64,000 nt of DNA from Boothiomyces macroporosus (lineage: Eukaryota; Chytridiomycota; Chytridiomycetes; Rhizophydiales; Terramycetaceae): contig JADGKB010000061.1 in assembly GCA_027604185.1 (NCBI GenBank), forward strand, positions 18,672-82,671, read 5' to 3'. Numbering within the stretch: position 1 is the first letter of the stretch; each line of letters begins with the position of its first letter. The notes beneath the pieces were generated by a model. The model saw only the letters and a program-made list of their open reading frames with translations, ran no database searches and was not told where the DNA came from. Shown here piece after piece: positions 821-64,000 of the stretch. Made by a program: the position numbers and the translations under genes.

Positions 821-1561
821 ATGACAAAAGTGCAATTCAAAGTACGGAATGAAATAATTACACTCAATGAAACGGTTTTGACAAACTTGCCAAAGGATTC
901 GCTGCTGTACAATCTCATCTATAATGACGCATTCGCAAAAGAACAAGATCAGGATGGAAACTTTGTTTTGCTGAACCAGGAAATTACTCCAGAGATATTT
1001 CAAATGATAGCCGAATACGTTGAATCCAAGGATATTGCGACACTGATGATTAAATCTTATTCCTGTAGAATTGCTCTATTGGATGCAATAAACTACCTTG
1101 GACTTCTAATTCCCAATGAATTACAAAAAAAGAAGGATTTACAAGATTTATTGGATGTTGTGAATACAAAGGATATAGTATGGTATGAGCAATTCCGTGA
1201 AAAAATATTTAGAGATAACTATCAAGTAATTTCCACCATTGCTGATTCGCTAATATCTAAAATAATGACAATAGCCAAAGAAATGAACGAATTACCATTT
1301 GTAAGCACTACCGAACGCGTTGGATTTAAAATTAGATATAATTTCATGGAGGAATTTGAGATATATCTCTCATACAAATCATTTTCTGTTGAAACCAAAT
1401 TCAAACTAAATCCCTCCAAATACCAGAGCCACACCAGATTATGTCTATTATTAACTGATATATTTCTTAATGTGATTTGGGGGTTGGGATTATCTTACAA
1501 AGAAATTGAGGAAATTAACTCTGATAGCGCATTTCTCACTGCTTCTCAGATCCTCAAATAA
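821..1561 (+). CDS. BTB/POZ (T1-type) domain protein
   Basis: A 246-residue protein whose first 75 or so residues resemble the T1/BTB_2 tetramerisation fold of KCTD-type proteins and potassium channels. It begins VQFKVRNEIITLNETVL, has a leucine-rich turn, then an acidic stretch ending in FQMIAEYV. There are no membrane segments, so it is not a channel. The remaining 170 residues are helical-looking and show no domain I recognise. Some BTB proteins are cullin-3 adaptors, but no partner can be inferred here. No intron; the Met at 821 directly precedes the domain. BTB assignment moderate, function unknown. Confidence 0.6.
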   Translation: MTKVQFKVRNEIITLNETVLTNLPKDSLLYNLIYNDAFAKEQDQDGNFVLLNQEITPEIFQMIAEYVESKDIATLMIKSYSCRIALLDAINYLGLLIPNELQKKKDLQDLLDVVNTKDIVWYEQFREKIFRDNYQVISTIADSLISKIMTIAKEMNELPFVSTTERVGFKIRYNFMEEFEIYLSYKSFSVETKFKLNPSKYQSHTRLCLLLTDIFLNVIWGLGLSYKEIEEINSDSAFLTASQILK

Positions 1562-1677
1562 GTAATAAATCACGAATTTGGTAAAGTTTTGTTGCTTCTG
1601 TTTGTGATACCAAGACTCTAAAGAATTGAACTTTCAAGTAGATGAAACTGTGTTTATTCAAAGATGAAATTCCCTGG

Positions 1678-1887
1678 TTAACAGTCGTAGTGGCCATCAC
1701 TATTTTTGCAGCAGTCACTGCAGTCACCCCATCCATCGCAGCAGAAAGTGCATTGTCCAGTAACACGGCATCCTCTCCATCCAATCAATTCTTTAGGCTT
1801 TCCTGGAGTGGTGTCAGCAGGATTTGGATGAGCAGCAGCGAGAGAACTGGTGATAAGAGCAAATGAAATGATGAGAGACTTGAACAT
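1678..1887 (-). CDS. Small secreted cysteine-rich peptide
   Basis: A 69-residue precursor. Residues 1-18 are a clear signal peptide (MFKSLIISFALITSSLAA). The mature part is small, Gly/Asp-rich, and carries eight cysteines in its C-terminal 30 residues, including two CC pairs (TFCCDGWGDC and DCCKNSDGHYDC). This is a disulfide-knot layout typical of secreted fungal peptides. No family is recognised and no activity can be assigned. A good TATA box lies 27 bp upstream of the ATG, which suggests strong, possibly stage-specific expression with almost no 5' leader. No intron. Confidence 0.7.
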   Translation of the reverse strand: MFKSLIISFALITSSLAAAHPNPADTTPGKPKELIGWRGCRVTGQCTFCCDGWGDCSDCCKNSDGHYDC

Positions 1888-2727: not shown

Positions 2728-4125
2728 CTAATTTATTAATGTAGCAAGCAATACAAAGACAGAAACTATATAAAAACTATTTTGAGCAGCACCTCCTGTT
2801 GGATTTGCATCAATGTCCGCGACTGGTGCAGCAGGTGGAGGTTGAGTTGGCGGAGCAAGTTTATCATCGTTTACTCCATTCAAGATGATTGAGAGTGTAT
2901 TGAGCAACTCCAAATTATTCATTGCCACGTGAATATTGTTTTCAAGTATTTGGGGTTTAGCCCAGCTAGCACTATTACACTTCATGTTGCTATCACAGGT
3001 ATTCAACATTGCTGTAGTGCTTTTTTGCACCGTATTTTTAATCAAGTCTTTAAGCTTTTGGTCCTGTGTCTTTTGGTATAAGATTCCCAAACCACGGAGA
3101 TAAGTTCCTTTTGGATTCACAGATGTAACATCACAATTAGGGTCGCAATAATCAGTTATGATACCATTAGTTTGAAATTGGTTTAGGGCTTTCTTTGCAA
3201 TATTTTCTGCAAGCGACAGATGTGTAGTATTTTTTGAGACTCCATAAAATGTAGCCATAGCGCCGACAATAGTTCCTGGGATGTAGGAATGTGAAGTAAA
3301 TACTCCTGGTTTCCCTTCTTTGGGGATACTTATAGTGCAATCACCCAATTTACTTTTAACGCTGATTCCATCAGCAGTCATATAGTCAGACAGTACCAAC
3401 TTTTGCGCAATCCAGTCAAACATCTTGTATGAATTTGCCAAAAACGTCTTGTCACCTGTCAAGCTGTACAAGACAGACCCCGAGTACAAGTGCTGTGCAT
3501 TTGTAATTGCTGATTTTGAATATCTGATAAGCAAAGTATTACCTTTCATTATCCTTTGGACTATTTCTATATCTTGACCAATAAATTCCTCCGTCACATT
3601 CATCAGTCCAAAGCTGAAAGACTTCATTGTATGTGTTTTTAGCAAGTTGAAAGTAACCGATTCCTCCAGGCATAGTTTGGTCAATTCCAAATCTTCTTGC
3701 ACCAGCGAGAGGTACTAGTGACCACCACCTACCGTTAGTTTAGTTTACATAATATCATCATTCCATACTCCATGTAGTACTTCAGACACTGTCTTGTCTG
3801 GTCCAAGAAAAGACCCAACTTTGCCATAAGATGCCAATGTAACCGAGTTTGTAATTGTATTCAGAAACTGTGTATCACCAGAAATCTCAGAGTAATCCAT
3901 CAACGCACCCCAAAAGACTCCGCATTCGTACCAATTAAAAGAAGTTGGGTCATTATCTGCTCTATGCTGCCTTAAACACCCTTTCCCATCCGCTGTTCTG
4001 CCTTCACCTGAAGTAGTGTAAAATGAATTCAATCGTTGAGCTGCTAGCTTGTTGAGCTGCTTGACGGCAGCTTTATCATTCACATTAACTGTGATGGCAG
4101 TAACCAATGTGATGAAAATCCACAT
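2728..4125 (-). CDS. GH76 DCW1/DFG5-like wall protein
   Basis: Cell-wall GH76 enzyme of the DCW1/DFG5 type, which in fungi acts on GPI-anchored mannoproteins at the plasma membrane and wall. The spliced protein is 452 residues. It has a signal peptide (MWIFITLVTAITV), the hallmark WYECGVFWGALMDY, an Asp pair in WNDDIMWW at the usual catalytic position, and GGIYWSR. A Pro-rich linker and a hydrophobic tail (NSFYIVSVFVLLATLIN) form a probable GPI signal. Two micro-introns, 3729..3748 (20 nt, inside the codon after WNDDI) and 3524..3542 (19 nt), are needed for the reading frame; unspliced, the gene falls into two unrelated-looking frames. Confidence 0.85.
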
Positions 4126-5627: not shown

Positions 5628-6177
5628 TTAGACGGTTTTTATAAAGGTAACAGCATTTTCAACAGTTACACGATCGGTAACCATGAACCCAACCCAAGGA
5701 ATAATCTGAAACTGCAGAGTAAGGTTGGCGGTAGTTCCTTGTAATTTATCAGTCAAATCATGAATAGGATACTCGCCTCTTTTTTTCTTGTACTTGATTA
5801 ACGCATCTTCCTTATTCCTAGATTAATGATACTTACCAAATAACATCATCCCATACTACCGCATGGTTCAAGTGATACTGGTCGTTGCTAAATTCACAAA
5901 TTACAGATACAAACAACATCTTGGTATTCCAATTGAAATAATTACGCAGATCCGCATCGATATCAAAGTGCAGTCTTCCCAGAGTTGGTTTATTCTTCCA
6001 GTCGTTTGGGATTCTTCCTTTTGTAAGTGCGATTTTTGCTGGCTTGAGTGTCTTTAAAGTTGGCTTTTCGAATTGAATGTAGTACAAGTGAGATAAGGCG
6101 CAAAAGAATAGAAAGAACATTGATGCGGTAGAGTACATGCTCGAGACTGTGGAGAGTCTGTTTTGGAAATTGTTCAT
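5628..6177 (-). CDS. SPC3: Signal peptidase complex subunit 3
   Basis: The SPC3/SPC22-23 subunit of the ER signal peptidase complex, needed for signal-peptide cleavage. It is a type II membrane protein with an N-terminal membrane segment near residues 12-35 (YSTASMFFLFFCALSHL) and a lumenal domain. Family hallmarks are DIDADLRNYFNWNTKMLFV and LNHAVVWDDVIW, continuing after the intron with KYKKKRGEYPI and FQIIPWVGFM. The 19-nt intron at 5818..5836 (GTAAGTATCATTAATCTAG) splits the codon for the second Trp; removing it adds the normal C-terminal half, giving 176 residues. Confidence 0.9.
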
Positions 6178-6787
6178 TTTGAGATTTCAAAAAGATTTTC
6201 AAAATGCTTTTCTGACGTGGAACTTTTCGAGTTGGTGGTGACAGCTTCTCACTCACTGCTGGTCAAGAGTACAGGTTTGGGTATTTCCTAGTAACAGTGT
6301 TTGGTTGTTTGCTCATCGATATGACTTTGGAACAGAGATTAATGAGCTGCACAGATTCATCCAAGGCAAGAAGGATTACCAGTCAGTAGGTGTATAGATT
6401 CATTCAACACAGTATCCTAGAAAAGTGCTAGGACAAATATATTGCATCGCAAGACTTGCAATCAGAATTAGCAGCTACCTGAATCAAACTTAACACCAAT
6501 TAAACCCTAACTTTGCAGCTCATGATTTCCGTATTCAGCAATCTTAATGCACCCATTCTTTCTATGGTGTTTCAAAGATGGCGTTATCAAGATGGAAAAT
6601 GGTGTGCAAAAAACTGAAATCCAAAATACAACTATTAATGTACAGAAAACAAGATCGGTACAAATATATTTTAATCGGATTACGGATCTTTTTCATTATC
6701 CTTTAAATCCCTTCAATTTTGATGTGGATTTCTAAATCTCCTTCAAGCTTGTTTTGGCTCGATTTCACCAAAATACTTTTACCAAAA
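6178..6787. other. 610 bp between SPC3 and cysteine synthase
   Basis: No convincing gene. A short plus frame at 6578..6706 encodes 42 residues, beginning MALSRWKMVCKKLKS and ending in a hydrophobic tail (YILIGLRIFFIIL). It could be a tiny tail-anchored protein or chance. Another scrap around 6300-6420 (MTLEQRLMSCTDSSKARRI) might belong to an unrecognised spliced small gene. Confidence 0.3.
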
Positions 6788-7768
6788 ATGCCGATTTATC
6801 AAAACGTACTTTTTGTTAATTGTAGATCCTTGAAACCATTGGGAGAACTCCTATTGTCAAAATCAACAAATTGGCTCCAAAGGGCATTGATATGTACGTT
6901 AAAGTCGAATCATTCAACCCAATGGCTTCAGTCAAAGATCGTTTAGCAATCGCCATCATTGAAGATGCTGAAAGGAGGGGTGTTTTGAAACCTGGCATGA
7001 CTGTTGTTGAAGCTACTTCTGGGAACACTGGCATTGCATTGGCAATGGTGTGTGCTGCCAAGGGTTATCCATTCGTTGCTACCATGGTATGTATGATTAA
7101 TGCAGGTTGAAACTTTCTCTATCGAAAGAAGAAAGTTGATGAAGTACTTGGGTGCCAAAGTCATTTTGACACCAAAGGAATTAAAAGGGTCTGGGATGGT
7201 TGCAAAAGCCAAAGAGCTTGCCCAAGAACACGGATGGTTCCTTACTTCTCAATTCGCCAACCCTGCCAACCCTGCTTATCATCGTCAAACTACTGCTTCA
7301 GAAATTTTGAGTGATTTTGCAGGAAAGAAACTGGATTACTTTGTTTCCGGATGGGGTACTGGTGGAACTATCACTGGTGTCTCAAAGATGCTTCGTGAAG
7401 CTAGACCTGATACTAAAATTGTTGCAGTTGAACCTGAAAAAGCCAGTTTATTGAGTGGAAAGCCATGGCAACCTCATATGATTCAAGGTTGGACTCCTGA
7501 TTTTCTTCCTGAAGTATTGGACAGAAACTGCTATGATCAGTTATTGACTACTAAGGATGAAGATGCGATTGCTACTGCCAAGCTATTGGCTCAAAAGGAA
7601 GGTATCTTTGTAGGCATCTCTGCTGGTGCCACTTTCAATGCTGCATTGCAAATTGCTCAAAAGGCACCACAAGGAAGTTCTATTTTGGCAATGCTACCAG
7701 ACACTGCTGAGCGCTACTTGTCTACTCCATTGTTTGCTGATATCTCTGAGGAATCAGATGTCATTTAA
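6788..7768 (+). CDS. Cysteine synthase (O-acetylserine thiol-lyase)
   Basis: PLP-dependent OAS thiol-lyase, making cysteine from O-acetylserine and sulfide. The 313-residue spliced protein has [10 protein letters not shown], the PLP lysine in ASVKDRLA, the substrate loop [17 protein letters not shown], the phosphate-binding GTGGTITG and [11 protein letters not shown], all in CysK order. Two micro-introns are required: 6806..6825 (20 nt, after the sixth codon) and 7087..7105 (19 nt, between ATM and VETFS). There is no CBS domain and no mitochondrial presequence. The protein resembles bacterial/plant CysK rather than animal cystathionine beta-synthase, so an ancient transfer is possible but untested. 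Confidence 0.93.
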
Positions 7769-7795: not shown

Positions 7796-8763
7796 TTAAC
7801 CAATCTTGTGCCAATAAGCCGCCATAAATGATGCACCTATCCACACTAGTAAATCACTGATACATTTAACAACAATCATTGCTACACCATTGTTTTGAAT
7901 GAAAAAGAGCTCAAATCCAAGCACCAGCAACAAATTATTGATAATAGTTTGAACATACAACAGCCCGATTATAAGATTAATAACAAGCCGGAAATTCTCT
8001 ACATTCGCTTGCCTCTTTTTCATATCAGCCTTCCGTCTATTCGACGTTTGCATAAGCACTCTATTAGAGAAAAACCAGACTATCGGCAGTGTAAGGAACG
8101 ATACAGAGAATACAAACAACAAGTAAGCGCATCTCCTATACAAAATGTAGTTTTCTATTGTCGTTGTTGTTCCTACTGCTGCCCAGCAAACAAAAAATGA
8201 CAAGGCTAGTAAGAATAGAAGCAGCCTAACTACCCCTAAAACTTTATCTGTTGCTATCTGAACATGAAATATGCTTATATCAGTGTACATGGAAACTCCA
8301 AAATACGCAGTTACGACAGTTGCCTGGATCAATGTAAGAGTACCACAAACAAATTCGAAGCAATCACACCAGAGCCGAAATACATAAAGTCAAATATGAT
8401 TGAAGCTTGAGCGTACCGTTGCATCTCTGTTGCCTCCATCACATCGGTGTCTCTATATACTATTGATCGAACTATAGCAAGCTGTATAATCCGAAACAGC
8501 GCACAAAGGCTGCAAACAACACCTATACTATCAATTGACGACCATCTTTTACTTCCTCTATGTAATATTTTTGATGTAATACTTTGTTTTACTTTGACAA
8601 GGTATACAATCAATGTTATTCCAGTAAGAATGATGCTAATTAAATCAATTAGTGCAAATATTTGCTTAATGTTTGCGGTACATCCCAGATAATTGGCTCT
8701 GTAGTCACAAATATCCAGTAAAAATGTTGTGCTTGACATTGAGAAGGAACACGTCACAAGCAT
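7796..8763 (-). CDS. 7TM ICDYRANYLGC-family protein, copy A
   Basis: Shortest family member, 315 residues. After a short N-terminus it has the signature LLDICDYRANYLGC, then hydrophobic segments near LISIILTGITLIVYL, VVCSLCALFRIIQL, FMYFGSGVIASNLFV, LLLFLLALSFFVCW, LLFVFSVSFLTLPIVWFFS, LIIGLLYVQTIINNLLL and ISDLLVWIGASFMAAYW. That is seven segments, and the chain ends just after the last. The loop before segment six is only about 20 residues, much shorter than in copies B-H. The 20-nt intron at 8324..8343 is at the shared family position in segment three. This copy lies apart from the main array, divergent from LRRC23. Function unknown; receptor role is inference. Confidence 0.75.
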
Positions 8764-9055: not shown

Positions 9056-10107
9056 ATGGAAGAAATCAACGACACAGAAATTGAAGACCAAAATATTCAA
9101 GATGAACAGCAAGACAAGAAAGAGCAGGAAGAAGAAGATGCCATTCCAGTTACAGCTGAAACTCTCCCATTAACTACAGAATTAATTTCACAGAATCTGT
9201 CTTTAATTGCGCGTACAGCTGTCGGACTCTCACACGCTTATACAAGATTAGAGCTTCATGAAAAAGAAATTACGAATTTGAACGCAATCAGTTCGTTTCC
9301 TCACCTTCGATACATTGTAAAACTGATTAATACAGGATTGTTCAGACAACAACTTAGTAAACATTGAAGGTTTGTCCAGTTTGGAATACTTGCTCTCCCT
9401 CAACTTGCAAAGTAATTTCATTTCGCAACTACCAGCAAGTTTGGATAAGCTAAAGTATCTTCAGCATGTAAACCTTGCCAAAAACAAACTCAAAGAGTTT
9501 ACAATTACTCATTGGCCAATGCTCTCATTCTTGAACTTGAACGGTAATTTATAGTAACAAAGACAACAAGCTGACTGAAAATGTTGTTTTTGAAGATTTC
9601 CCAGAGCTGTTGCATTTGGAATTGAGAGGAAACAAGTTAAAGTCCAATCCTAAAATGTCGCTACCAAAGCTGCAAAGATTGTATTTGGTAATTGAGATTA
9701 ATTCAGGCAGCAAACGAAATCGAGACTTTGAAATTCCCTGATTTGCCACACCTACAAGTATTGAATTTACGTCAAAATAAGATTAGTAGTCTTGACGGGC
9801 TAGACAGGCTCATCCACCTCACTTATCTAAACTTGCGGTAAGGTTTTGCTTACTAGTCAAAACAAGATTGAAACCGTTGACCAAATAGAGAAACTACAAC
9901 GAATGCATTCACTAAGAATTCTAATCCTCATTGGTACTTTCTCTTTAATTAGAAAACCCAATTGAGCAGATTGAAAATTATAGACTTGAAATCTTGAATA
10001 GGTTGACTAAGTTGGATCGGCTGGACAAAGAACAAGTGTCGCAGGAAGAGAGAGAAGAGGCAGCTATTTACAACCCAAAGCCGATTGAAACCCAACCAGC
10101 TGTATAA
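9056..10107 (+). CDS. LRRC23: LRRC23-like radial spoke leucine-rich protein
   Basis: Orthologue-like match to LRRC23, a leucine-rich-repeat protein of the radial spoke head in motile cilia. The 318-residue product has an acidic N-terminus (residues 1-40), the diagnostic RTAVGLSHAYTRLEL and ITNLNAISSFPHLRYI, then about eight LRRs such as LHLELRGNKL and LNLRQNKISSLDGL, and an acidic C-terminal cap. It contains five introns, all exactly 19 nt: 9317..9335, 9544..9562, 9688..9706, 9838..9856 and 9934..9952. An upstream GTG frame exists, but the ATG at 9056 starts the acidic leader. Its presence implies a beating axoneme. Confidence 0.88.
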
Positions 10108-10258: not shown

Positions 10259-11293
10259 TTAGTGAGCTTTAAGTCCCAATTTAGCCAAGTCTTCGGCTTC
10301 AGGTGCAACAGCGACTTTAGGTTGTTGGTTAAAGTGATGGAAATCTGGTGGAGATGGAATGTTCCATTCTAAACTTGGAGTGGCAATAGTAACAGGTTGT
10401 TTGTTTGAGCCATAGGTAACTTTGGTGAAGAATGGTGGGAGCAAATATTCTGACCAGTAATCGTTAGATAGATGGTGTCCTGGGGCTTCGAAATCTGGAT
10501 GTGGAGCTTCATATGCTCTAATTCTGGCTGGGACGCTTTCTGCAACATCATAAGCACCACCTATAATTAAAAATATTAGTACGGAGTTCTACAGCAGTGA
10601 ATTCTAATCCAAATTCAGATTCATGTTTGCGCAGACGGGTCAATACTTTTTCAGCTAATGACTCTCTTGCAGATGCGGATAATCCAGCCTTTGCCTCTAC
10701 ATTTGCAATTTCATTTTCCAATGCTTCGCGAACAATTCTTGCAGCTGATCTTTCAGAATCTGGTTTGTTGGTTTGTGGGTCGCGGTAATAAGTAGACTAG
10801 ATTTAATATTGAATTACAGCTTGAGCATCGATAACTTTGAAATATGTAACAGCGTAAACATCTACTAGTCCATCTACGTTAATAAAAAATACTCTTTGAA
10901 GAAACGCCTGCAGAGAATACACCCATTGAAACTGGAATGGTAGGTTTTACGGCTTTGATTTGATCAATTAGTGGCAGTAAAACATGGGTTCCGGATTGTA
11001 AGACTTGAGAGAATTTTCCAAAACGTTCAACAACCCAGGATTCTCCAGCTGGTACGGTTACTAATCCCTACATTAAAAATATTTACTCTAGTAATTGGCT
11101 TGCGTTCATAGAATGAAGTGGAGGTAGTCCAAAAGTCCCACTTCTTTTCGTATTCAGTCAATTCTCTGACTTGTTCTGCTGGAACTCCGTTGACAAACTT
11201 TACAAGTGGGTTGTGGGAGTATGGAACAATCAAAGAGTGGCTAGAGCGAGTTGATGGTCTGGCAATTCTTGGTACTCGTAGCAAGCGATTCAT
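10259..11293 (-). CDS. SPFH/band-7 stomatin-prohibitin-like protein
   Basis: A divergent SPFH (band 7) membrane-scaffold protein, most like mitochondrial stomatin-like SLP2. The 317-residue product starts with a basic, Ser/Arg-rich mitochondrial-type presequence (MNRLLRVPRIARPSTRSSHS). It then has GLVTVPAGESWVVERFGKF, HVLLPLIDQIKAV, GLVDVYAVTYFKVID, and a helical AARIVREALENEIANVEA region, but the usual long Glu/Ala coiled coil is missing. The C-terminus is Pro/His-rich and unlike typical members. Introns: 11068..11086, 10874..10892, 10797..10817 (21 nt with in-frame stop) and 10561..10582 (22 nt). Exact subfamily uncertain. Confidence 0.7.
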
Positions 11294-11937: not shown

Positions 11938-13532
11938 ATGCCAATGGATAAGCTTTCTCCTTTGCCAGAAACAAAAAATCTCGCGTTCCATTTTATGGAA
12001 ACGGAAATTCAACTTTACAAGAGAAATTCAGTAGTCAAGACGAAATACGATATCAAGAAATCCATCTTTCATCCAACAATTGATGAAGATTATTCTGTCC
12101 CTTCTTTGGAACCATCCATTTCAGATTTGGAACTGATGATTGACAAGAAAAAGAGTTCGGTATTGCATTCTACGATTGATTTGTGTAATACTATACTCGG
12201 GACGGGTATTGTGTCTTTGCCTTTTGCTTTTTCAGTTGTTGGGTTGGTTCAAGGTATCTGCTGGTTCACGTAGGATTCTTTATTACTTTGTTTGCGATTG
12301 CATCTACTTGGTTTTCATTGCGGCTACTTGTATTCTCTGCCGAGTTAGCGCATGGACAACAGCGACCAAGACCATTTATTCTCGTTACAACCGATGGAGA
12401 GCCTTCGTTTTCATCAATTGGACAAGCAGTTCTTCCAAAGCGGTTAACTATAGTATGCGATATATCAGTTATACTAGGATGCTTGGGGTTCGCTGTCAGT
12501 TATCTGATTTCCATAGGAGAAGGAATGCCAGAAATATTTCAGTATTTGACGAGCCAGGATTCAATCTTATATCCAATACTAACAAACAGATACTTTTGGA
12601 TGCTTGCATTTCTAGCTGTAATTATGCCGCTCAACTATGCAAAGTCAGTGGATGACTTTTGGTGGTTCTCTGGACTAGCTTTATTTTGCGCTTGTTATCT
12701 GGCTGTACTCATCCCATACCTAGCAGTATTTGTCAAATCAAAAGGAGACTATGAATTGTTTGTATTTGATTGGTCAACTTTTCAAAGCATCCCCATTTTC
12801 ATCTTTGCTTTTACCTGTCACCAAAATGTAAACTGTTTCTAACTAGATCTTTTCAATCTATAATCTCATTGATGCGAATTATATACAAGGGCACAGTCTA
12901 GAGCCGAAGCAATTGATTCATATCTTTTCTGTTATAGATCTGTCTGTAATTTTGGTGGGTGTAACTTACATGTCAATAGGAATTATAGGTTATATGACAT
13001 TTGGGTCAGGCACTAAAATTATTGTTCTAGATAATTGTAATACTTTTTAATTATAGTTGAAACTGGGATCTTGATACTAATTGGAAAGTTTTTTTACTCT
13101 TTGCTGGCAGCGCTATCCTTTCCAATTCAAGCACATCCATGCCGACTAGCAATGGAATCGCTTTATAATTACTTTAAAGATGAAATGTTTATCGGATATT
13201 CAGAAATACCAGGTGACGAGAATTCAAGCTTTTCGCCAAACTATATGGAAGAAGAAATTCTGCTCACCAGAGAATCACGAAGACTTGCTCTATCGACATT
13301 GATACTTGTGCTTTCGTATGCCACCGCATTTGTTATACCAAACCTTGATTTTTACCTTGCATTTGTGGGTGCTACTGGGGGAGTGTTCATGTGTTACGTG
13401 TTGCCGACATTATATTATTGCCAAGTGACAAAAGACGAAGAGTGGGGCTTCAAACAGATAATAGGCGTAATACTATCAGGATTTGGTATCCTGTTTGGCG
13501 GGTTGCAAGTAATATCTTTGTTTTTCGAATAA
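11938..13532 (+). CDS. SLC38/AVT-type amino acid transporter
   Basis: An 11-TM-type transporter of the amino acid/auxin permease superfamily, close to SLC38 and the yeast vacuolar AVT5-7 group. It probably moves neutral or basic amino acids across the vacuolar membrane. After an 80-residue cytosolic N-terminus comes the signature HSTIDLCNTILGTGIVSLPFAF, given here as two motifs around residues 77-98. Later motifs include IFIFAFTCHQN and FPIQAHPCR. Spliced length is 511 residues. Introns: 12254..12273 (20), 12838..12856 (19) and 13037..13056 (20). The transported substrate cannot be read from sequence. Confidence 0.85.
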
Positions 13533-17872: not shown

Positions 17873-18027
17873 TAATAACACTCGATTAATGCTGTCAGTT
17901 TCCGTTATATTTCTCAATTTAATCATTAGCAGGGGAGGAAAAGTGATATAAAAACAATCGGCCATTGTCCCGATTTACAGCATTTTACGAGTTCTATTGT
18001 ACTTTGTGTCAGGCTTTAAAAAAGATT

Positions 18028-22481: not shown

Positions 22482-22644
22482 ACAATAAAGTAGTTGTAAC
22501 TGAACAAAATATTTACAAATGGGATTCTTTCTACTTTAGCACAAAGATAAAGCCGCTTTCTTATCTTTAAAACCACTACGTCACACCTTTCGCTGTTGTT
22601 TTTTCCGTCCAACTGTTGTTAGTTTACGCGTAGAGTTGACAAAA

Positions 22645-41941: not shown

Positions 41942-43010
<1,069 letters not shown>

Positions 43011-48300: not shown

Positions 48301-49064
48301 TTATGCCAGTTTATTCACAAACGCCTTCACATTGGCAATTAACCCATTCAAGTCGTGTTGGTGATACCTAAGTTAACGTAATTGTACCAATGACCAACAC
48401 CTGGAACCACAGCGACTTCAGAGCCAGAAATATTCTCTGCAATCATTAGCCCATACGAAACATCAATCATCTTGTTGTCTGCCCCATGTAAAACCAATGT
48501 TGGTGTTTTAACAAGATGCAGTTGATCAGTCAAGTTTACTCCATTTATGCAATTCAATTGTTCCCTCAATACCAATTGGTCCAGCTGAGTAAAACTTGAT
48601 TTTCCTTTACTGTTTGTAATGTACTGATTAGGGTTTTCCATTGATACACGAAGCATTCCTCTTGAAGGAGTCATTGGAAAGGTATTTACTAGCACCATCC
48701 CTTGAAGAACAACGTCATCTCGTCCACGAAGCAACAGGCTTAGCTGAAGACAAGCGATCCCTGATAAATCAAATCCTAAAAGAACAAATTCCTTCAACTC
48801 GCATTCTAATATGATATCAAATATATCAGTTGCTAATTGTAGTAATGTGAGGTCCATTGGTATCGTCGATGGGGGAATTGGCTGAGTGTAAGTAGACTTT
48901 CCTTGCCCTCTGGAATCAATTAGTAACAATGAATTGGGCAAATTATTGAACGCATTGTAATCTTGAACTGTTTGTAAGATACCAGGAACTAGTACTATTG
49001 CTGGTGACTGTTTTTTGGTGTATTCGTAGTTCAATTTTGCTCCATCTCTGGTTTGGAAAATCAT
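48301..49064 (-). CDS. Alpha/beta hydrolase with Asp-type nucleophile elbow
   Basis: 247-residue alpha/beta hydrolase: IVLVPGILQTV (oxyanion region), SLLLIDSRGQGKS, nucleophile elbow LLGFDLSG, TLVLHGADNKMIDV with the acid residue, and a catalytic His in VPGVGHWYHQ. The elbow has Asp in the G-x-Nu-x-small pattern, as in haloalkane dehalogenases and epoxide hydrolases, rather than the Ser of esterases. The 20-nt intron 48368..48387 (GTACAATTACGTTAACTTAG) splits the Trp codon after that His and restores the last 17 residues. Substrate unknown. Confidence 0.7.
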
Positions 49065-51309: not shown

Positions 51310-52397
51310 ATGTCAAACACTTCCATCAACTCTTATTACTTGTTTGATATATGCGACTATAGAGCCAACTATCTCGGATGCGATCCAGTAAAGCAGTACT
51401 CTTTTGCCATCGTAGATCTTGTCATTATTATCATGACATGTGTGTCCATTCTGGCATTCGCCGGTCTAGTTGTCCGTAATCTCCTTTCAAAAAAGACTGA
51501 TGGCAAGAAGTGGACAGCTGCTGATACTTTGTGTGTTCTCTGTGGATTATCAAATATCTTTAGAATTGTGGAAATTGCCAATGTCCGGTCAGTGGTATTC
51601 AAAGACCAATCTGCAATGACTGATTTTCAAGCAAAACAGTACTTTCAAATCACAGTATTTATAGATTTCCTCTATTTTGGATCTGGCGCGGTAGCTTCAA
51701 ACGTGTTCTTGGTACTTTAAGTTAATTTCAGGTTAGTGTTGCTGGTGCTGCTGCTGGTGTCAATGTGTTTGCTGACATTAAAGTTGGTGACAAAGTGCTG
51801 TCACCAGACAAGATTCTTAAAATTGTTCGACTGGTCATTCTCATTTTAACTCTGTCATTTTGTATTTCTTGGGCTACAATTGGGGCAACCACCGACTTGG
51901 AAAGCTACATTACATATAGAAGATGCGTGTTTATCTTGGCAATTTGTACGATTGTTTTTGTTTCTCTCCCAGTCATCTTATTCTTTGGAAACAATGTTTT
52001 GCGAATTCTCTCTGAAGCCAAATCTTCAAAATCTGGAAGTGTAAAGCATGTATCAGACAACGCCAAGAACAAGTCTGTAGATAACAGACCTCCATCTCAA
52101 ATTGTATCAAGAACTGTTGAAGGGTCCCAGCATAGTGAAATATCTCACACGAAATCTGTAAAAAAGACTGGGCTTACCCAAGAGCAAAAAATATCAAATT
52201 TCAGATTGGCTATCAATATGTGCATCTGGATATTGTACGTATCGACAATACTGAATCATATTTTGCTGCTGGTTGGGTTTGAAGTACCTTTCTTTCAAGA
52301 AAATACTGTTGCCGCTGTGATTTTGAAGGCTATAAGTGATACACAAGTGTGGGTTTGCTGTGGCTTTATGTTTATATATCTGTTTAGAGTAGGTTGA
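51310..52397 (+). CDS. 7TM ICDYRANYLGC-family protein, copy G
   Basis: 355 residues in a second cluster 29 kb from the main array. It has the full signature FDICDYRANYLGCDP and seven hydrophobic segments. The variable loop is about 90 residues, Lys/Ser-rich (HVSDNAKNKSVDN). Segment seven reads AISDTQVWVCCGFMFIYLF, departing from the usual SVWIS. The family intron is 51712..51731 (20 nt, GTACTTTAAGTTAATTTCAG). G and H share LSFCISWATIGAT/LSFTICWATIGAT and FGNNVLRILSE, so they duplicated from each other after splitting from B-F. Confidence 0.75.
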
Positions 52398-52964: not shown

Positions 52965-54152
52965 ATGTCAAACGCTAACCAAACTATACCTCTTAGCACT
53001 TCGTACCTATTAGATATATGTGACTACCGCGCGAATTATCTGGGGTGCGATGCTGAACGAACTCAAATGTTTGCAACCATAGATTTAATAATGATTATTA
53101 TGGCAGTTGGATCAATTTTCGGATATTTAGGTATCCTAATTCGCAACTTTATTGCTAGAGCAGTAAACGATAACAAGAAAAAATGGAACTCTGCAGATAA
53201 TCTATGTATATTTTGCTGCCTAGCAAATGTGCTTCGAATTGCAGAGCTTGCCAACGTGCGGTCTGTTGCTTTCAAAGACAAAAGCCTTTTGACAGACTTG
53301 TGGATCCAGCAGTATTTGCAAATCACTGTATTGATGGATTTGCTCTATTATAGTATGGGTGCAGTAGCTTCTAGTGTATTTATGGTACAATAGGGCTAAC
53401 AGTAGGTTGGCGTTGCCGGAGCTGCAACAGGGCTGAATATATATTCAGATATCAAGATTGGAGAACGTGTAATTTCCCCCGAGAAAATACTAAAGCTATG
53501 GCGTATAGTAATCATGATTATCAGTCTTTCCTTTACTATATGTTGGGCCACAATTGGTGCAACTAAGGGACCAGAAGAGTACGCAAAGTATAGAAGAGGA
53601 ATCTATGGATTAAACATGGCGGCAATCGTCTTTATTGCTCTACCAGTCATCTTATACTTTGGTAACAATGTATTACGAATCTTGAGCGAGACCAACTCGT
53701 CTAGAGACATGTCTGAAGGCACAAGTCAAACAAACGTCCAACATTCAGACGTCAATTCCAAGCACAAGTCAAAAGTCCCAGAAAGCGTATCCAAACACAA
53801 TCTGGCTGGAGAACTAAATAGAGAGAATAGAGAATCGAAAACGCCAAGTTATTTCAAGCGTACTGAAGTTACTCCAAGCCCTTCTGCTAGTGACCTAAAG
53901 AAACTTCAAACCAAAAAGATTAAAATTTCTGCTAAAGATCGAAAGATTGGTAACTTTAGAATGGCTATTAATACTGTTATTTGGCTTCTCTATGTTGCTG
54001 TAGTATTCAACCATATCCTACTGTTTATGGGATTTGAAATGGATTACTTTTTAAACAACACGACTGCGGCCGCTATCTTAAAGACAATCAGTGATTTGAC
54101 AGTGTGGGTAAGCTGCTCGTTCATGCTAATCTACTTGTACAGAGTTGGATAG
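52965..54152 (+). CDS. 7TM ICDYRANYLGC-family protein, copy H
   Basis: 388 residues, the longest copy. The N-terminus has an NQT glycosylation site before LLDICDYRANYLGCDA. Seven hydrophobic segments; the variable loop is about 120 residues with many Ser/Lys/Glu (SKHKSKVPESVSKHN). The family intron 53385..53405 is 21 nt; because this is a multiple of three it would not shift frame if retained, but it contains an in-frame TAG. The gene stop is also TAG, followed by AATAAAATGGG. It converges on the hydrolase triplet, with 14 bp between stops. Confidence 0.75.
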
Positions 54153-54166
54153 AATAAAATGGGAAT

Positions 54167-55153
54167 TTATTGGATTGGTTTTGAGTTGCGAAGGATTACT
54201 TCGAATAACAGGTCGCTGTACAATATCGAAAAGTGGCTCTTTGTAGGATCCACCAAGAGTTCGCTATTCAATCTCGCACTTGTTTTTTCAAAGAACAGGG
54301 ATACTTGCTCTTTGGTGGTGATTGGATTCTCTCCGCTTCCAACAACCATTGTAGTTTTGATTGGAATCGGTTTCCAACCGCTGATAAATCGTGCTCCTTC
54401 GTCAAACATATCTCTAACGCTATTGAATTCGGTCGAGAGTTTCCTTATGCTGAATCCATCCACAAAGTCGCTGTAAAATCTCGCAGATTCATAGAAATTA
54501 AAGTCAGTAGTAAAATAAAATGGGAGGTATAGCACGTCTGAAAAAAGGCGGAGTATCCCTAGATCGCCCAAGATTGATGCAATGGTCAGTAAACTAGGCT
54601 TTAACATTGCTCTGAATTTTTCCTGAACACCATCAAGTTTTAGAATGTAATCCGCCGGAGTGGGCTCAACCAATATGATTGATTTTATCCTAGAGTCTAG
54701 TCCGTACAATTGCGTGTATAATTGTACTATAATAAGATCAAAATACCTGCCACACCTCCAAACGAGTGCCCAACCAATATGATAGACTTGTTGTCAGCCA
54801 AATTCACAAATTCATTGATATGTTGTGCAAATACTCTAAAGCTCATTTCATCGGGTTTGTCAGACTTGCCAGTTCCCAATCGATCATAAACCAAAGAACT
54901 GATTCCATACTTTGACAGCTTTCTTTGCAAAGGAAGCATGTAGGTTCCAGACATGTTTGCTCCAGATACTAGTATAACAAGCGGGTCTGCATGCTGAGTA
55001 ATTTCGTAATTTACCCGCTTGCCATTGATGCGAATCGTCCTTCGAGGTTGACGGTGAAAGTAAGCGCGAATATGATGAACGGCAATGAATGCAAATGCAC
55101 CTGCATTAGGACTTGTTACCAATGGCGACTTTTTCCCAGATTGTGAATTTCAT
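54167..55153 (-). CDS. Membrane-anchored alpha/beta hydrolase 1 of 3
   Basis: 315 residues. A first exon of ten codons (MKFTIWEKVA) and a hydrophobic N-terminus with the tandem-family hallmark FIAVHHIRAYFHR are followed by the fold: VILVSGANMSGT, LVYDRLGTGKSD, nucleophile elbow GHSFGGVA, IILVEPTPADYIL and MVVGSGEN. A late catalytic His lies in DPTKSHFSILYS. Introns: 55101..55119 (19 nt) and 54727..54746 (20 nt), both at the same positions as in the two neighbours. Likely a lipase or esterase at a membrane; substrate unknown. The first frame has no ATG without the first intron. Confidence 0.75.
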
Positions 55154-55183
55154 GAACCAAGAAAATGAAAATATTGGAGGGAT

Positions 55184-56149
55184 TTATTGGCAAGATTTTA
55201 GAATAGCATCAAAGAGCAAATCGCTATAGAGAATAGACACGTGGCCTTTGGTATCATCAGCGTAGAGATCGCCTTGAAGTCTGTCTGCCGTATCTTTAAA
55301 GAATTTTCTAATGTCTTCAGGTGTAGAGGCAAGGTTATCCTTCCCTCCACCAACTACTACATCCATCTTGACGGGCACTTTTTTCCAGCCAGCAATCATT
55401 TCGCTCGCTTCATCAAACATATCGCCAATGCATCTGGCTTCAGGAACCAGCTTGCGCAACAAATAACCATCCGTGATATCCGCAAAGAACCTGTTGTTCT
55501 CTGTGAATGAATATGGAGTTTGAAAGTAGAATGGTGAATAGAAAAAGTCTGTAATGAACCTGATAATTCCAAAATCAGCCAATATTGAAAAGTATTGAAT
55601 AATAGTCGGATTCAGCAACTTCTTTTTGAAATCTTTAATCTTGATCAAGTGATCCGCTGGAGTAGGCTCTACTAGTATAATCGCTTTAATTCTCGGGTCC
55701 AGTCCATATACCTGGGAATAATATTGCACTAGTTTAACATTGAAATACCCCCAATTCCGCCGAATGAGTGACCAACTAGCACAATGGATTGACTATCGAC
55801 CATCTTCACCATTTGATGAATGTGTTCAGCATATACTAAAAAGTCTATTTTCTCGATTGAATCTGATCTCCCAGTTCCTAATCGATCAAATGAAAGCGAG
55901 CTGATAGAGTGCTTCCCGAGTTTGCGCTGAATAGGTAACATGCAAGTTCCAGACATTAATGCTCCAGAAACAAAAATAACCATAGGATCGTCATGGCTGT
56001 GTATTTCATAACCAACCTTTTTCCCTTTGACTAATACTGTCGTTTTCGGTTTACGGTGAAAGTAAGCTCTCAAATGATGCACTCCGATATAAGCTCCGAT
56101 GACTGGATTAGTTTGAAATACCAATGAGAACCTTTGTTCCAAATTTCAT
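55184..56149 (-). CDS. Membrane-anchored alpha/beta hydrolase 2 of 3
   Basis: 308 residues and same architecture: MKFGTKVLIVIGAYIGVHHLRAYFH (as MKFGTKVLI plus the shared motif), VIFVSGALMSGTCMLP, FDRLGTGRSD, nucleophile elbow GHSFGGIG, IILVEPTPADHLI, VVVGGGKDN and DDTKGHVSILYS. Introns 56103..56121 (19 nt) and 55729..55748 (20 nt) match those of copy 1 exactly. The catalytic Ser and His are kept, so the enzyme should be active. Copies 1 and 2 are each other's closest relatives by eye. Confidence 0.75.
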
Positions 56150-56216
56150 ATGGAAAAATATTTTGGAAAGACATATTCAATGCAAAGCCTCGAATGAAAG
56201 TGTCACAGCTGTATCT

Positions 56217-57194
56217 TTATTCACAAAAGTATTCTTTGAGAATGGCTCGCTTGAGCAACTTGCTAAAGACGATAGTGTAATGGTTCTTTGCTGGTTCAAC
56301 CAATAGCTCCGCATTGAGTCTTTGGGAAGTTTGATCATAAAACTTGGCCATCAATGTCCCAACAATCCCATCCTGGCCGCTTCCACCGACTACCATAATC
56401 GTTTTAACTGGGCTAGTCCAATTCTCTAAGGCTCTTCCTTCATAAAACATGTCTGTGATGCTATTAGTTTCTACTGATAACTTGTTTATCAGTACAGCGT
56501 CAGAAAAATCACCCAGAAAGCGGTTGGTTTCTTCAAAAGTAAACCTAGTGAATAACTTGAATGGAACTATGAATAAATCGGCAACTAGTCTAATTAATCC
56601 AAGATTGGCAAGAGTGCAAACTAGAAAATTATGTACTTTGTCTGTTTTCTTGTAGTAACTATCAAAACCTTTAGGGTTTTCTTTTACAATGAGGTCTGTA
56701 GGTGTAGGTTCAACCAAAACGATCGACTTGATTCTAGGGTCTGCTTTATATAGCTGAGTGTAAAATTGAACTAGTTAGAAAAACGGTACTTGCAACACCA
56801 CCAAAAGAATGCCCAACGAGTATAATCTCTTTGTTTTCAATTATCTGCAGTAATTCATGAATTTGCTGCGCGTACAGCTCAAAGTTCATTTCATCTGTAG
56901 GGTCGGATTTCCCTGTACCTAGCTTATCAAATGTAACCGATGCAACATCCAGCTCTTCGAGTTTTCTTTGAAGCGGGATCAAATAGCTTGCAGACATTTG
57001 CGCACCTGACACTAGTACAACCATTGGGCCTTTGCGTTGAACCATGTTATAATTAACTTTACGATTGTTCACTTTGACGAATGTTTTGGGCTTGCGGTGG
57101 AAATAAGCGCGGATATGATGAAGGGTAACATAAGCGCAATAACCTAGATTAATTTACACTAACCAATGGCTAATGATTCTGTTATAGTGAGCAT
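56217..57194 (-). CDS. Membrane-anchored alpha/beta hydrolase 3 of 3
   Basis: 312 residues, the most divergent of the triplet but with the same order: YVTLHHIRAYFHRKPK, MVVLVSGAQMSASYLIP, FDKLGTGKSD, GHSFGGVA, IVLVEPTPTDLIV, MVVGGSGQDG and EPAKNHYTIVFS. Met at 57194 lies in the small first exon (MLTITESLAI). Introns: 57144..57163 (20 nt, with a GTTAGT donor) and 56771..56789 (19 nt), again at the shared positions. It is the outermost gene of the triplet and lies next to a 300-bp gap. Confidence 0.75.
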
Positions 57195-60106: not shown

Positions 60107-61830
60107 CTACCAAGCCTTTTTCCTTTCATCAAGCTCAACCAAAGTGCTCTGTTTGGAATAGCCATCAGTAGTAATAACTTCAATTTCGTCGTCTACTTGT
60201 TCAATTTTGACCCCAACATACTTTTCAACACGTTCATGCAGCATTTCCACAATTTCAGCCTTTTCCTCTTCATTCAACAATGATTCTTGCTCAACCTCAT
60301 CTTCCAATCTTTCCATTTCTCTTAATATTTCTTTTTCTGCTTGGGATTGCTCCACTGGCGCAGTGTACCTTACATCCTCTTCTAAATGTAAATCATTAAT
60401 TAAAATAGTTGGGATTGATTGTTCAGTGTCCAGTTGATACTGTAGCGCGTTGGCTTCTTTGATGTCTTCATCGGTGATAATTGGTTGATACTCATTTTTG
60501 TGAGCAAGATGATCATTGCTTTCAGGTGTGATTTCTTCAATGAGAACTTTTTTGGGTTCAGATTTGACATTGGCGTTGCTTTCGAAAGGAGAATTGTTCA
60601 AAGAACTTGGTTCTTTGATAATCTCCATTTTGCGTGGAGGGACATGGTGCTCTTCAATCTTTGCAGTAGCTTGTCTTTCTTCGTATACCTCCTCCAACAA
60701 ATCATCATGAACGTCAGCTTCGTTTTCTGTTTCTTCGTCTTGCTCAGTCGCGCTTGATTCAGCATCAATTTCTTCAATGATAGACTCGTTCTTGGGTTCA
60801 ATTCTTGCAAGCATTTCATCTTTGAATTCTTGCATTTTTTCAGACAACACAGGCTCTTGTTCTTTCCCATACTTTTCCAACCTCTTTTTTCTCCCGGTTT
60901 CTTGTAGAATTCGCATCGCTTAATTAGTAAGAGCAACCTTCAAAGTTTGCTTCCTGTTTTTTCTTTTCTTCTTCATAGATACGCTCTCTTTCCAATCGCT
61001 CTCCTTCCATACCACCGACAGCCCTGATATTAAACAATAGTACCATGCGTCTGTGGTCAGCCTTTCTTTTTCAAATATTGGACGGTCGTCCAGGTAGGTC
61101 AATGTTTTGATTTTTGACACCAGAACCCTTCTATAGTTTGCAATCTTACGAATGACAGGGTTCCCCATCAAATTCAAAACCGCCTAATTTAAACTATATG
61201 TACCAAGTTGGGCATTCTTTCCAGGATAGAGACTATTTCAGGGTCTTCTATCTTGTTGTTGCTAAGATCTAGTACGGTAATTGATGGGCAATCCAACAGT
61301 CCAGAAATATCATCATAATTGGCAAGAAAGTTATTTTGAATCTGTAGAGTTTTGAGTTGTTTCAAATTTCCTAATCCTCTAATCTTTTTAATGAGATTGT
61401 TTCCGACATTCAAAGTGTCAAGCTTTTCCAACTTGTCGAGATTTTCAATGGTCTCTATGCAATTTTGCTGTAAAAATCTAATATTAACGTTTTGTTACAG
61501 ACAGCGAAGCTCAGAAAGCATTTCTAAGTCAGTTAAAATTACCTATATTTTCAATCTTGGAAATTCCGTTTCCTTCCAACCACAAACTTTTAAGCCCGGT
61601 GTAAAGATCCAAGTTTTCTATTTTAGAAAACCCTTTAAAATGGAGGTAGAGGATATCGTTGAGCTCTGGCGTTTGGTAGACTTTTTGCTCTTTGCAAAGC
61701 TGTTTAAGGTAAGCCAAAGTCATTAGCGTATTCCTGCATAAATCATCATCTACCCTTTTTCATCAACTTCTTTGGCGTTTCTTCTTCTTGCAAGCCATGA
61801 TTTGGCATCGAGATTAATGTCTGACAACAT
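60107..61830 (-). CDS. DNAAF1: Dynein axonemal assembly factor 1 (LRRC50-like)
   Basis: DNAAF1/LRRC50, required for cytoplasmic preassembly of axonemal dynein arms. The 534-residue product has [32 protein letters not shown], five to six SDS22-type LRRs ([42 protein letters not shown]), the cap [16 protein letters not shown] with LTYLDDRP, and a long acidic C-terminus. The first exon ([17 protein letters not shown]) is found only after removing a 20-nt intron. Introns: 61734..61753, 61524..61542, 61478..61498 (21 nt with an in-frame stop), 61184..61203, 61024..61043 and 60919..60937 (GTTGCT donor). Confidence 0.95.
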
Positions 61831-61872
61831 GGTAAAAACGCGAAAGTGAGTCAGCCGCAAATATTTCAATGT

Positions 61873-64000
61873 TTATTTCTGCTTATCCCTATTGTACAGA
61901 ACCAATACTACAAACCCTATTACACGTAAGCATATACCAATGATTGCCATATAAGCAAGGTCTAATCCTGGTCTGTCAACTGTATACCCGTATAATGGAA
62001 CAGTACTTTCATCCACTTGATAGAGCCCCCTGAATGGAGTAACTTCACCAGAAAAGAACATTTCCAACCCCCATCGGTTGTAAGAGATCGTAAATAAGAT
62101 TTGAAGCAAGATATTGGCTCCTTGAATAACTGGACTTGCACCGGACAAGATTGCGGGAAAGAAACTAACTGTAGTACTTAAAACTGCCTGGTTTTCTCTT
62201 CGAACCATGATGGATATAATACTAGACACTCCATAAACGCCAAAGTATGTGAGCACAATCATTAAAAACATTTGCCAGAAAGGTGTCAATGGATTGATCA
62301 TACAATACACTATACCAATGAAGTGCAATGCCGCCAAAGTCAATCTAGGAATAGCAGCAATTGTTTTCGCCTAAATTAAATATGAATACCCAATAATACG
62401 CCGCTCTACTGTGTCCAGATGCTGCTTCTCGATAGAACACAGCAAGTTCAGGCCCGAAAACATTCACCCCAGAAGGTGCGGAGCAGATACAAATCGCCAT
62501 TCCAAATACAAATCCGGTATTTGCCACAGTAACTTCGTCAGGAGATGGTGAAATTAAGGAGAGGATTCCAATAAAAACCCCTCGGTATAAGCTTCCACGA
62601 ACAGATTTTAATGAATATCCTAAACACAGAGCAATAAGAATGGACACTGTCATTTCATAAAAAAAATCATAAAGGGCTCGATATTGCTGAATAAACGATC
62701 TCTTGAAGCAGAGAGTGAATTGCTGAAAAAAGGAAGCCCCACGAAGCTTGCATAGTCTAAACAGTTCTTCCTGAGAAGACTTTTGTAATTCCATTCCAGG
62801 TTTTGCTCTTTTAGTGGTATTTCGTTTTACTGTTTCGTATAGAATTGGTAAACTGGAAGTTCTATTTCTAATGGAGAGATTTGGATCAGTATCTTTAGAG
62901 ATAGCACTTGCATATGGGTATGTTACCTGCTCGTACGGGTTAGTAACGTAAGGACTAGAAACAGGCATATCCAATACTGTGCTGTTTGGTTTTCGATTAC
63001 TAACTTTGCCATTCTTTACAAAATAGTTCCATTCATCGGCAATTTCATCAGGAGCGAGTGCTGTGTAACTGCTTTTTGGTTTAAGCTGGTTGCTGACTAT
63101 GTCCATGAGTATATCGCAGGGGTTTTTCGACGGATCAAACTACGGTTAAAATAGCCTACCTTGTATCCCAGATTTTCGAAATACTCCTGCGCATTCTCGC
63201 GAGGGCCGAGGTACGCGGTTCTTCCTCCGGGAATAAGCAGCAGAATGTCATCGATTTCGTTGTAGATCTCCAAGCGCGGCTGGTGGATAACTGCGATCGT
63301 AGACAACCCCAGCCGGGCCATGTTTTTCAGCAGCACTGCTACGTTGAGCGAAGACGTCGAGTCGAGCCCTGACGTTGGTTCGTCAAGGAACACTGCCAGC
63401 GGAAGAGCCCCAAGCTCCATCCCGATGTTCACCCGCTTTCTTTGGCCACCAGAAACACCGCGGGTGTATTCGTCCCCAATGAGCGAGTCCGCTACTCTGT
63501 CAAGCTGCAGCGCTTTGAGAAGAGCATCAACATATGTCGATACTTCCTCATCTGTCCAACTGGTCGGTGCTCTGATTCTCGCAGAGTGGTAAATGTTTTC
63601 TCTCACCGTCATTTCTCGCAGCATCGTGTCTTCCTGCGGAACAAACCCGATAATCTGTGGTTAGTTTGGCTGTACGTTTTTGAACATCCCCAGACTCCCC
63701 TCCGTGTCGTTGATGTACAGCTGGCCAGCCGTTCGGCTGACTTTCCCACTGAGCACATTCAGAAAAGTGGTTTCTACGTTAGCTCGGTTCTACTGCCGGC
63801 ACCCGATGGACCCATGATAGCAGTGAATTTCCCAGGAGCAATCTCGCCGCTGACTCCGTTCAAGATCGTCACTCCAGATGGAAGAGTCAAGGACAGCTCT
63901 TCAAACTTTAGCCTGATGTTGGTTTGTGTGCCATTGCGACATCTCGTAAAGGCGTCCAGGATCGCCTTGTCCTGGAATCCATTTTCTTTCTTTGCTGGTG
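61873..64000 (-). CDS. ABCG-type half transporter, 5' end missing
   Basis: ABC transporter of the ABCG layout (nucleotide-binding domain before the membrane domain), truncated by the window edge. Walker A GPSGAGKTTF is split by intron 63774..63793. The signature VSGGQRKRVNIG, Walker B LAVFLDEPTSGLDSTSS and the H-loop VIHQP follow. The membrane part includes FGPELAVFYREAASGHSRAAYYW and at least five hydrophobic segments, ending LYNRDKQK. Other introns: 63655..63675, 63140..63159 and 62371..62389. From about 63110 to the edge the coding sequence is visibly richer in G and C than the rest of the gene and the window. Substrate unknown. Confidence 0.88.

Follow-up and report, generated by a model that had tools for sequence, protein, structure and literature searches.

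The window, the whole stretch of DNA analysed here, comprises 64,000 nucleotides (nt) of contig JADGKB010000061.1 of the Boothiomyces macroporosus assembly (15.2 Mb, 216 contigs). Introns interrupt 33 of its 43 gene models, 73 in all, and 68 of these are only 19-22 nt long (28 of 19 nt, 33 of 20, four of 21 and three of 22; the others are single introns of 15, 37, 44, 49 and 50 nt). These segments are very probably U2-type spliceosomal introns that have shrunk genome-wide to a near-minimal 19-22 nt, rarely 18 nt, in a chytrid. The original prediction, made from the letters of the window, had counted 74 introns across 28 genes, with 73 at 18-22 nt; the tiny-intron habit it described is confirmed, with the figures revised as above. 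The organism, which it had called fungus-like, is a true fungus (Chytridiomycota, Rhizophydiales, Terramycetaceae). A serine palmitoyltransferase encoded in the window shares 97% identity with one from Boothiomyces sp. JEL0866, and chytrids supply most of the named matches that follow. Placement among aphelids or sanchytrids was discarded in view of the protein matches to Boothiomyces.

The genes whose splice junctions were compared with homologous proteins are the following; here and further below, positions come from trained gene models unless homology is named, and many product names were given by the look of the sequence.

6722..7768 (+): cysteine synthase-like gene g5, introns 6806-6825 (20 nt) and 7087-7105 (19 nt), by homology
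9056..10107 (+): LRRC23 (g7), five 19-nt introns 9317-9335, 9544-9562, 9688-9706, 9838-9856 and 9934-9952, by homology
10259..11293 (-): band-7 gene g8, introns 11068-11086 (19 nt), 10874-10892 (19 nt), 10797-10817 (21 nt) and 10561-10582 (22 nt), by homology
13637..14871 (+): CLUAP1/IFT38 (g10), introns 13702-13720 (19 nt), 14282-14301 (20 nt), 14556-14574 (19 nt) and 14640-14658 (19 nt)
41059..41076 (-): 18-nt intron GTAGTTGGTTCTAACGAG of PPIH, the U-snRNP cyclophilin, by homology
41942..42944 (-): PRMT1 (g28), intron 42116-42134 (19 nt), by homology

Comparison of five of these genes with solved structures, using junction positions derived by hand from the gene-model coordinates, leaves 11 of 13 junctions ungapped within conserved sequence. 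In LRRC23 no alignment gap lies within three residues of any of the five junctions (PDB LRRC23 9fqr_Xm, E 1.2e-46); both junctions of g5 (3x43_A, E 3.2e-118) and the single junction of PRMT1 (8z2z_A, E 1.6e-140) are ungapped, as are the first two of four in CLUAP1/IFT38 (8bd7_L), whose last two lie at or past the edge of the conserved part. The intron 7087..7105 of the cysteine synthase and the five LRRC23 introns had thus been correctly placed from the start. The same is true of the 18-nt PPIH intron, which homology fixes: FMVQG and GDF join without a gap against human PPIH (E 8.1e-85), and in the unspliced frame a stop falls inside the segment. The trained model did not call this intron, probably because it had met none of 18 nt in training. 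That every spliced gene length is a multiple of three, as had been pointed out, is built into any such model and hence is not independent evidence.

Annotation made by others bears on the same junctions. The g8 protein of Boothiomyces sp. JEL0838 (P0121; 317 amino acids, 99% identity) is ungapped at all four, and eight homologues selected from 38 hits, all of other chytrid genera, are each ungapped at three of the four. The splicing factor Isy1 has the same length, 241 amino acids, in the JEL0838 annotation, with a listed identity of 100%, although a single residue differs between the two sequences as printed. Since both JEL0838 proteins agree with the spliced models, this independent annotation supports splicing as modelled.

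The length class also emerges from motif counts. Segments of the form GTA...YTRAY...AG, 17-23 nt long and on either strand, number 85 in the window, whereas 40 first-order Markov sequences hold 39.3 on average and 58 at most, and the excess sits at 19-22 nt (24 observed against 6.0 expected at 19 nt; 28 against 6.2 at 20 nt). A larger sample of 264 kb joins the window to the first 100 kb of contigs C1 and C2. Relative to ten third-order Markov sequences, C1 holds 43 such segments against 14 at 19 nt and 49 against 13 at 20 nt; C2 holds 41 against 15 and 60 against 17, respectively. A fixed-length pattern, GTA N9 TAAY N4 AG, was discarded: its spacing was wrong and it has no match in the window.

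An untrained gene finder gives the same length peak. It works by dynamic programming on codon statistics only, allows flat intron lengths of 10-120 nt and has GT-AG ends as its sole knowledge of introns; in the 264 kb it puts 124 of 256 introns at 19-22 nt. Decoy ends in the same search put far fewer there (AG-GT, 22 of 216; GA-TG, 15 of 240; TG-GA, 8 of 234), and the remaining 132 GT-AG calls have a length spread resembling that of the decoys. The trained models, which have learned donor, acceptor and length, contain 354 introns in the same sample, 329 of them at 19-22 nt (19 nt, 87; 20 nt, 155; 21 nt, 53; 22 nt, 34), so that nearly all modelled introns fall into a single, uniformly tiny class of at most about 25 nt. 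Strict-motif segments of 19-22 nt lying in sense within gene models are used as introns in 174 of 180 cases, by models that were trained on this motif, and 25 more lie elsewhere or antisense. The predicted genome-wide use of tiny spliceosomal introns is borne out in each of the three large stretches that were sampled. Extrapolated from 329 in 264 kb, the 15.2-Mb assembly would hold about 19,000 tiny introns, and the pattern probably also covers sequence outside the 264 kb and the additional loci examined.

Apparent insertions could also be created by assembly indel errors or by degraded genes, and insertions of 19, 20 or 22 nt do shift the frame as errors would. This explanation is very unlikely and already strongly disfavoured: the insertions start with GT, end with AG, hold a positioned YUAAY and form one length class across all three large stretches; they interrupt conserved, otherwise intact genes, and decoy dinucleotides give no length peak.

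The anatomy of the segments was read from a consensus set of 331 introns of 17-24 nt (329 at 19-22 nt) from the window, C1 and C2, in which both their existence and their geometry are directly visible. The donor is GT throughout (100%), with A at +3 in 92%, A at +4 in 58%, T at +5 in 46% and T at +6 in 52%; the acceptor AG follows T or C in 300 of the 331. The upstream exon flank favours A at -2 (53%) and G at -1 (48%), and the introns are 70% A+T. Donor position +5 is G in just 16%, a departure from the usual GTAAGT despite the canonical 5' end of U1.

A branch A could be assigned in 322 of the 329 introns of 19-22 nt, within the consensus YUAAY (relative to the branch A, T at -2 in 97%, A at -1 in 82% and Y at +1 in 93%). 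A branch site of scored quality is thus found in 97.9% of real introns, compared with 45.5% of interior-shuffled ones. The branch A is nt 14 (133 introns), 15 (141) or 16 (41) in 315 of 322 cases (others, 7), and not 10-14 nt from the donor as had been proposed. The YUAAY lies near the 3' end; the branch A is followed by 5 (181) or 6 nt (119) in 300 of 322 introns, and by 4 (17) or 7 (5) in the rest. By our own count, only 2-4 nt separate the six donor bases from the five U2-pairable bases upstream of the branch A. A shortage of 3n lengths was considered as a sign of nonsense-mediated decay: 49 of 53 introns of 21 nt would bring an in-frame stop if retained, which proves nothing, as the models hardly see stop-free 21-nt introns.

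Removal of the segments from mRNA would follow from reading frames, homology and independent annotation taken together. A length below that usual for spliceosomal introns might suggest a non-spliceosomal route, such as translational bypassing, RNA editing or self-splicing. Such a route is extremely improbable, given the GT-AG ends, a branch consensus complementary to the U2 box, the AG preference of the exon flank and a retained spliceosome; 20 nt is too short for a group I or group II core.

Much of the splicing machinery, U5 and U4 aside, is present in the genome. RNA and protein families were sought by profile search, with control genomes blank for all families but U2AF65. U6 (62.2 bits) and two U2 genes (142.2 and 135.4 bits) exceed their cut-offs, with the ACAGAGA and GUAGUA boxes intact; a U1 candidate reaches 68.8 bits against a cut-off of 69.5, and its 5' end, AUACUUACCUG, is intact. 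The recognition boxes of U1, U2 and U6, which the original prediction had proposed to check, are thus canonical. The two U2 genes (C80 and C178) are nearly identical in their 5' functional regions and have diverged in their 3' parts.

Among the proteins, SF1, Slu7, Prp18, the Cir_N domain of Cwc25, Isy1, Prp8 and Yju2 score above cut-off. A flagellated organism with a largely normal spliceosome had been foreseen, and this stands: LRRC23 and CLUAP1 fit a zoospore, and U1, U2, U6, SF1, Slu7 and Prp18 are all found. From work in yeast, a short 3' tail might permit loss of Slu7 and Prp18; that loss is ruled out here, both being above cut-off. Cwc25 retains MGGGDLNLKKSWHP, with its MGGG glycine plug, and the N-terminus of Yju2 is recognisable (both compared with human sequences). 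The Cwc25 gene occurs in two copies near contig starts (L030 on C49, L031 on C100), with equal scores and an identical predicted protein; these are either haplotypes left separate in the assembly or a recent duplication. Ten spliceosome-family loci on ten contigs, nine of them other than C1, C2 and C61, carry 27 modelled introns, 20 of which are 19-22 nt long (a count that takes Cwc25 in both copies and includes one neighbouring gene); the Yju2 gene has no modelled intron.

Several observations weigh against the conclusion drawn here. U5 was not detected in the genome search, although non-detection does not show absence. Of the two factors proposed for checking, SF1 is present, and U2AF65 appears only as a candidate of 230.7 bits, below the curated cut-off of 310.3 and scored unspliced through its introns; its profile picks up other RRM proteins as well and gave matches in 2 of 14 control genomes. 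The gene models were made in this analysis itself, and 25 of the 354 trained-model introns fall outside 19-22 nt, several of them errors (in g2 and g15). When the models took the motif from C1 and C2, had no length term and could place introns of 12-400 nt, they put only 46 of 123 window introns at 19-22 nt and scattered the others over 15-391 nt, mostly one per length. In g8, the second junction has a nearby gap in all eight homologues from other genera, and the public B. macroporosus protein (P0122, 289 amino acids) differs at two of the four introns.

Part of this would suit an account in which the introns are real but longer, the tiny ones owing something to the modelling and the true splice sites lying farther apart, as in places of the public annotation. 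The run lacking a length term chooses many longer models, P0122 has no extra residues at two of the four g8 introns, and a few longer introns do look real (49 nt each in g18 and Isy1). However, the two stretches that P0122 lacks, which adjoin the second and fourth introns of g8, can be matched in homologues from Globomyces and other chytrids and are kept in JEL0838; their absence is likely an annotation error. When lengths up to 400 nt are allowed in the untrained search, 90 GT-AG introns fall at 19-22 nt against 21, 14 and 7 for the decoys, and the GT-AG excess is confined to that band, with none beyond 22 nt. Longer introns as the general rule are therefore very unlikely. The length prior matters for clean models, not for the 19-22-nt peak.

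Taken as a tiny spliceosomal intron, each segment would be a packed unit with two short spacings, 14-16 nt from the donor G to the branch A and 5-6 nt from there to the end. GUA(A/U) would be read by U1 and then U6, and YUAAY by SF1 and then U2; branching would produce a lariat loop of 14-16 nt with a tail of 5-6 nt, and the first downstream AG would be used. As the few nucleotides after the branch site leave no space for a polypyrimidine tract, the U2AF65 candidate would have to work in another way or do without such a tract. The tight loop may be given room in the active site by a degenerate Isy1 N-terminus.

Isy1 here begins with MAPKTLAQKQEANILKKY in place of MARNxEKAQSMLxRFR. Among 13 Isy1 sequences selected for alignment out of 111 hits, the motif is preserved in eight (Gonapodya, Hyaloraphidium, Chlamydoabsidia, Dipodascopsis, Capsaspora, a green alga, a liverwort and a slime mould) and degenerate in the four from Rhizophydiales (Boothiomyces, Kappamyces, Gorgonomyces and, only partly, Globomyces); one is cut short. 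By a strict pattern, 43 of all 111 hits have the motif and 24 fail, 11 of the latter being near-variants by eye, such as MARNEEKS; the other 44 were classed by the position of the first WR, and are mostly cut before the motif, with some near-variants. None of the 111 hits is named Batrachochytrium. No exon restoring the N-terminus was found in the first 1.6 kb of the locus (1.2 kb upstream of the modelled start); one pattern match in the locus was rejected, as it lies in another frame inside the gene. The start of Isy1 (L033 1225-2104) directly precedes the modelled 49-nt intron, which leaves room for model error, although the JEL0838 annotation agrees. This 49-nt intron holds nested motifs resembling tiny introns and is possibly composite.

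A link between Isy1 erosion and tiny introns is hypothetical and drawn from sequence comparison. Its fuller form is tentative and, in our judgement, rather doubtful: tiny introns might have arisen in this fungal lineage by shrinkage around an otherwise complete spliceosome, enabled by erosion of the Isy1 N-terminus, which contacts the intron within the active site for branching; Stentor possibly converged on this one minor alteration, and losing Slu7, Prp18 and the Cwc25 plug would be optional. Such a shared change in two unrelated lineages is conceivable because the Isy1 N-terminus is also reported as degenerate in Stentor.

The other intron-bearing genes of the window are as follows.

2728..4125 (-): GH76-like g2, intron 3729-3748 (20 nt); a second intron modelled at 3561-3597 (37 nt) is probably wrong, 3524-3542 (19 nt) being likely instead
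5628..6177 (-): g4, intron 5818-5836 (19 nt)
7796..8439 (-): g6, membrane family, intron 8324-8343 (20 nt)
11938..13532 (+): g9, transporter-like, introns 12254-12273 (20 nt), 12828-12846 (19 nt), 13037-13056 (20 nt)
14904..16341 (-): g11, DHBP synthase-like, introns 15906-15925 (20 nt), 15737-15756 (20 nt), 15499-15517 (19 nt), 15361-15380 (20 nt)
16735..17872 (+): g12, membrane family, intron 17143-17161 (19 nt)
18028..19141 (+): g13, membrane family, intron 18427-18448 (22 nt)
19499..20666 (+): g14, membrane family, intron 19925-19946 (22 nt)
21469..24492 (+): g15, probably a model fusion of two genes, credible introns 21769-21788 (20 nt), 23240-23260 (21 nt)
24566..26199 (-): g16, protein kinase-like, intron 25882-25901 (20 nt)
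26533..27437 (-): g17, RRM protein, intron 27088-27107 (20 nt)
27919..27967 (-): credible longer intron (49 nt) of the SDR-like g18, with GTAAGT and TTAACCACAG
28691..29111 (-): g19, SCP2-like, introns 28975-28994 (20 nt), 28738-28757 (20 nt)
29752..31743 (-): g20, coiled coil, 20-nt introns 31666-31685, 31546-31565, 30803-30822, 30472-30491, 29839-29858 and 19-nt introns 31393-31411, 29947-29965; a 15-nt call, 31008-31022, is ambiguous
33344..33953 (-): g22, 20-nt introns 33901-33920, 33389-33408
34313..35896 (-): g23, CNNM-like, introns 35730-35748 (19 nt), 35460-35479 (20 nt), 35089-35107 (19 nt), 34676-34695 (20 nt)
36184..37640 (+): g24, MFS transporter-like, intron 36641-36660 (20 nt)
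43361..43649 (+): g29, intron 43417-43435 (19 nt)
44260..45455 (+): g30, intron 44335-44354 (20 nt)
46785..48186 (+): g32, flavin disulfide reductase-like, intron 47189-47207 (19 nt)
48301..49064 (-): g33, alpha/beta hydrolase-like, intron 48368-48387 (20 nt)
51310..52397 (+): g35, membrane family, intron 51712-51731 (20 nt)
53067..54152 (+): g36, membrane family, intron 53385-53405 (21 nt)
54167..57045 (-): g37-g39, three tandem genes, alpha/beta hydrolase-like by look, introns 55101-55119 (19 nt), 54727-54746 (20 nt), 56103-56121 (19 nt), 55729-55748 (20 nt), 56771-56789 (19 nt)
60107..61830 (-): g42, LRR protein, axonemal by look, introns 61734-61753 (20 nt), 61524-61542 (19 nt), 61478-61498 (21 nt), 61184-61203 (20 nt), 61024-61043 (20 nt), 60919-60937 (19 nt)
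61873..63624 (-): g43, ABC transporter-like, introns 63140-63159 (20 nt), 62371-62389 (19 nt)

Two further introns modelled in g15, 22444-22493 (50 nt) and 22496-22539 (44 nt), are not credited, as they bridge the gene fusion. The membrane family, multi-pass proteins of about 355-380 amino acids, has expanded locally at 16735-22481 and 51310-54152 (g12-g15, g35 and g36, and also g6); a Pfam scan of one member gave no family match, and a decayed copy appears near 20815-21195. Judged by eye, g12-g15, g35 and g36 have their intron at a common place, with lengths of 19, 22, 22, 20, 20 and 21 nt; intron length thus drifts among six paralogues, yet stays within the band. The introns of g37-g39 lie at similar places. 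At 38396-40739, g25 and g26 are two adjacent, similar, intronless genes, polysaccharide-deacetylase-like by look. Searches of the window for RNA genes with Rfam (gathering thresholds) and ARAGORN (bacterial settings) gave none.

In the parts of the literature covered, genomes with introns of 15-21 nt belong to ciliates, nucleomorphs and reduced intracellular organisms (PMC9505925, PMC10245619). Stentor coeruleus introns are described as 15-16 nt long, and resemble those of Boothiomyces in forming a single narrow class at the lower limit, in their GUA start and in a branch A that lies 5 nt before the end; a canonical ACAGAGA box in U6, a canonical branch box in U2 and a non-conserved Isy1 N-terminus are also reported there (PMC9505925). 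The same account locates the branch A of Stentor introns at nt 10-11, without a strong consensus, lists Slu7 and Prp18 as not found and gives the Cwc25 glycine plug as lost (PMC9505925), whereas Boothiomyces has its branch A at nt 14-16 in a strong YUAAY, both factors and the MGGG plug. Chlorarachniophyte nucleomorph introns, cited as 18-21 nt (in PMC10245619), occupy nearly the same length band, but in extremely reduced endosymbiont nuclei rather than a 15.2-Mb fungal nuclear assembly. To these precedents, nucleomorphs and Stentor having been named in the original prediction, mikrocytids must be added: their introns of 16-17 nt likewise form a narrow class with conserved intron sequence (PMC10245619). 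Mikrocytids are described as reduced intracellular organisms with a spliceosome of 17-19 proteins, and 224 introns are annotated in M. mackini (PMC10245619), compared with 329 tiny introns modelled in only 264 kb here.

Among other spliceosomal introns of Fungi, the Cryptococcus mean of 63 bp is cited as relatively short, and the portion of that source consulted mentions none near 20 nt (PMC8476143). No report of tiny introns in chytrids was found in a search of titles and abstract openings, with subscription papers mostly outside its reach. As far as these searches show, Boothiomyces is a new and apparently independent member of the tiny-intron genomes, unreported for Fungi.

The practical consequence is that annotation can misplace such introns, as in the public g8 protein, which lacks two stretches that its relatives have; judged from that protein, public annotation seems to accept some tiny introns and to misplace others. 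Boothiomyces is presumably a saprotroph. A culturable fungus with canonical U1, U2 and U6 boxes, Slu7 and Prp18 would show that neither intracellular life nor those losses are needed for introns of this size. It is near enough to the systems of yeast genetics that the minimal intron, the distance from branch to 3' end and Isy1 could be tested directly, and it could serve as a convenient organism for probing the smallest spliceable intron.

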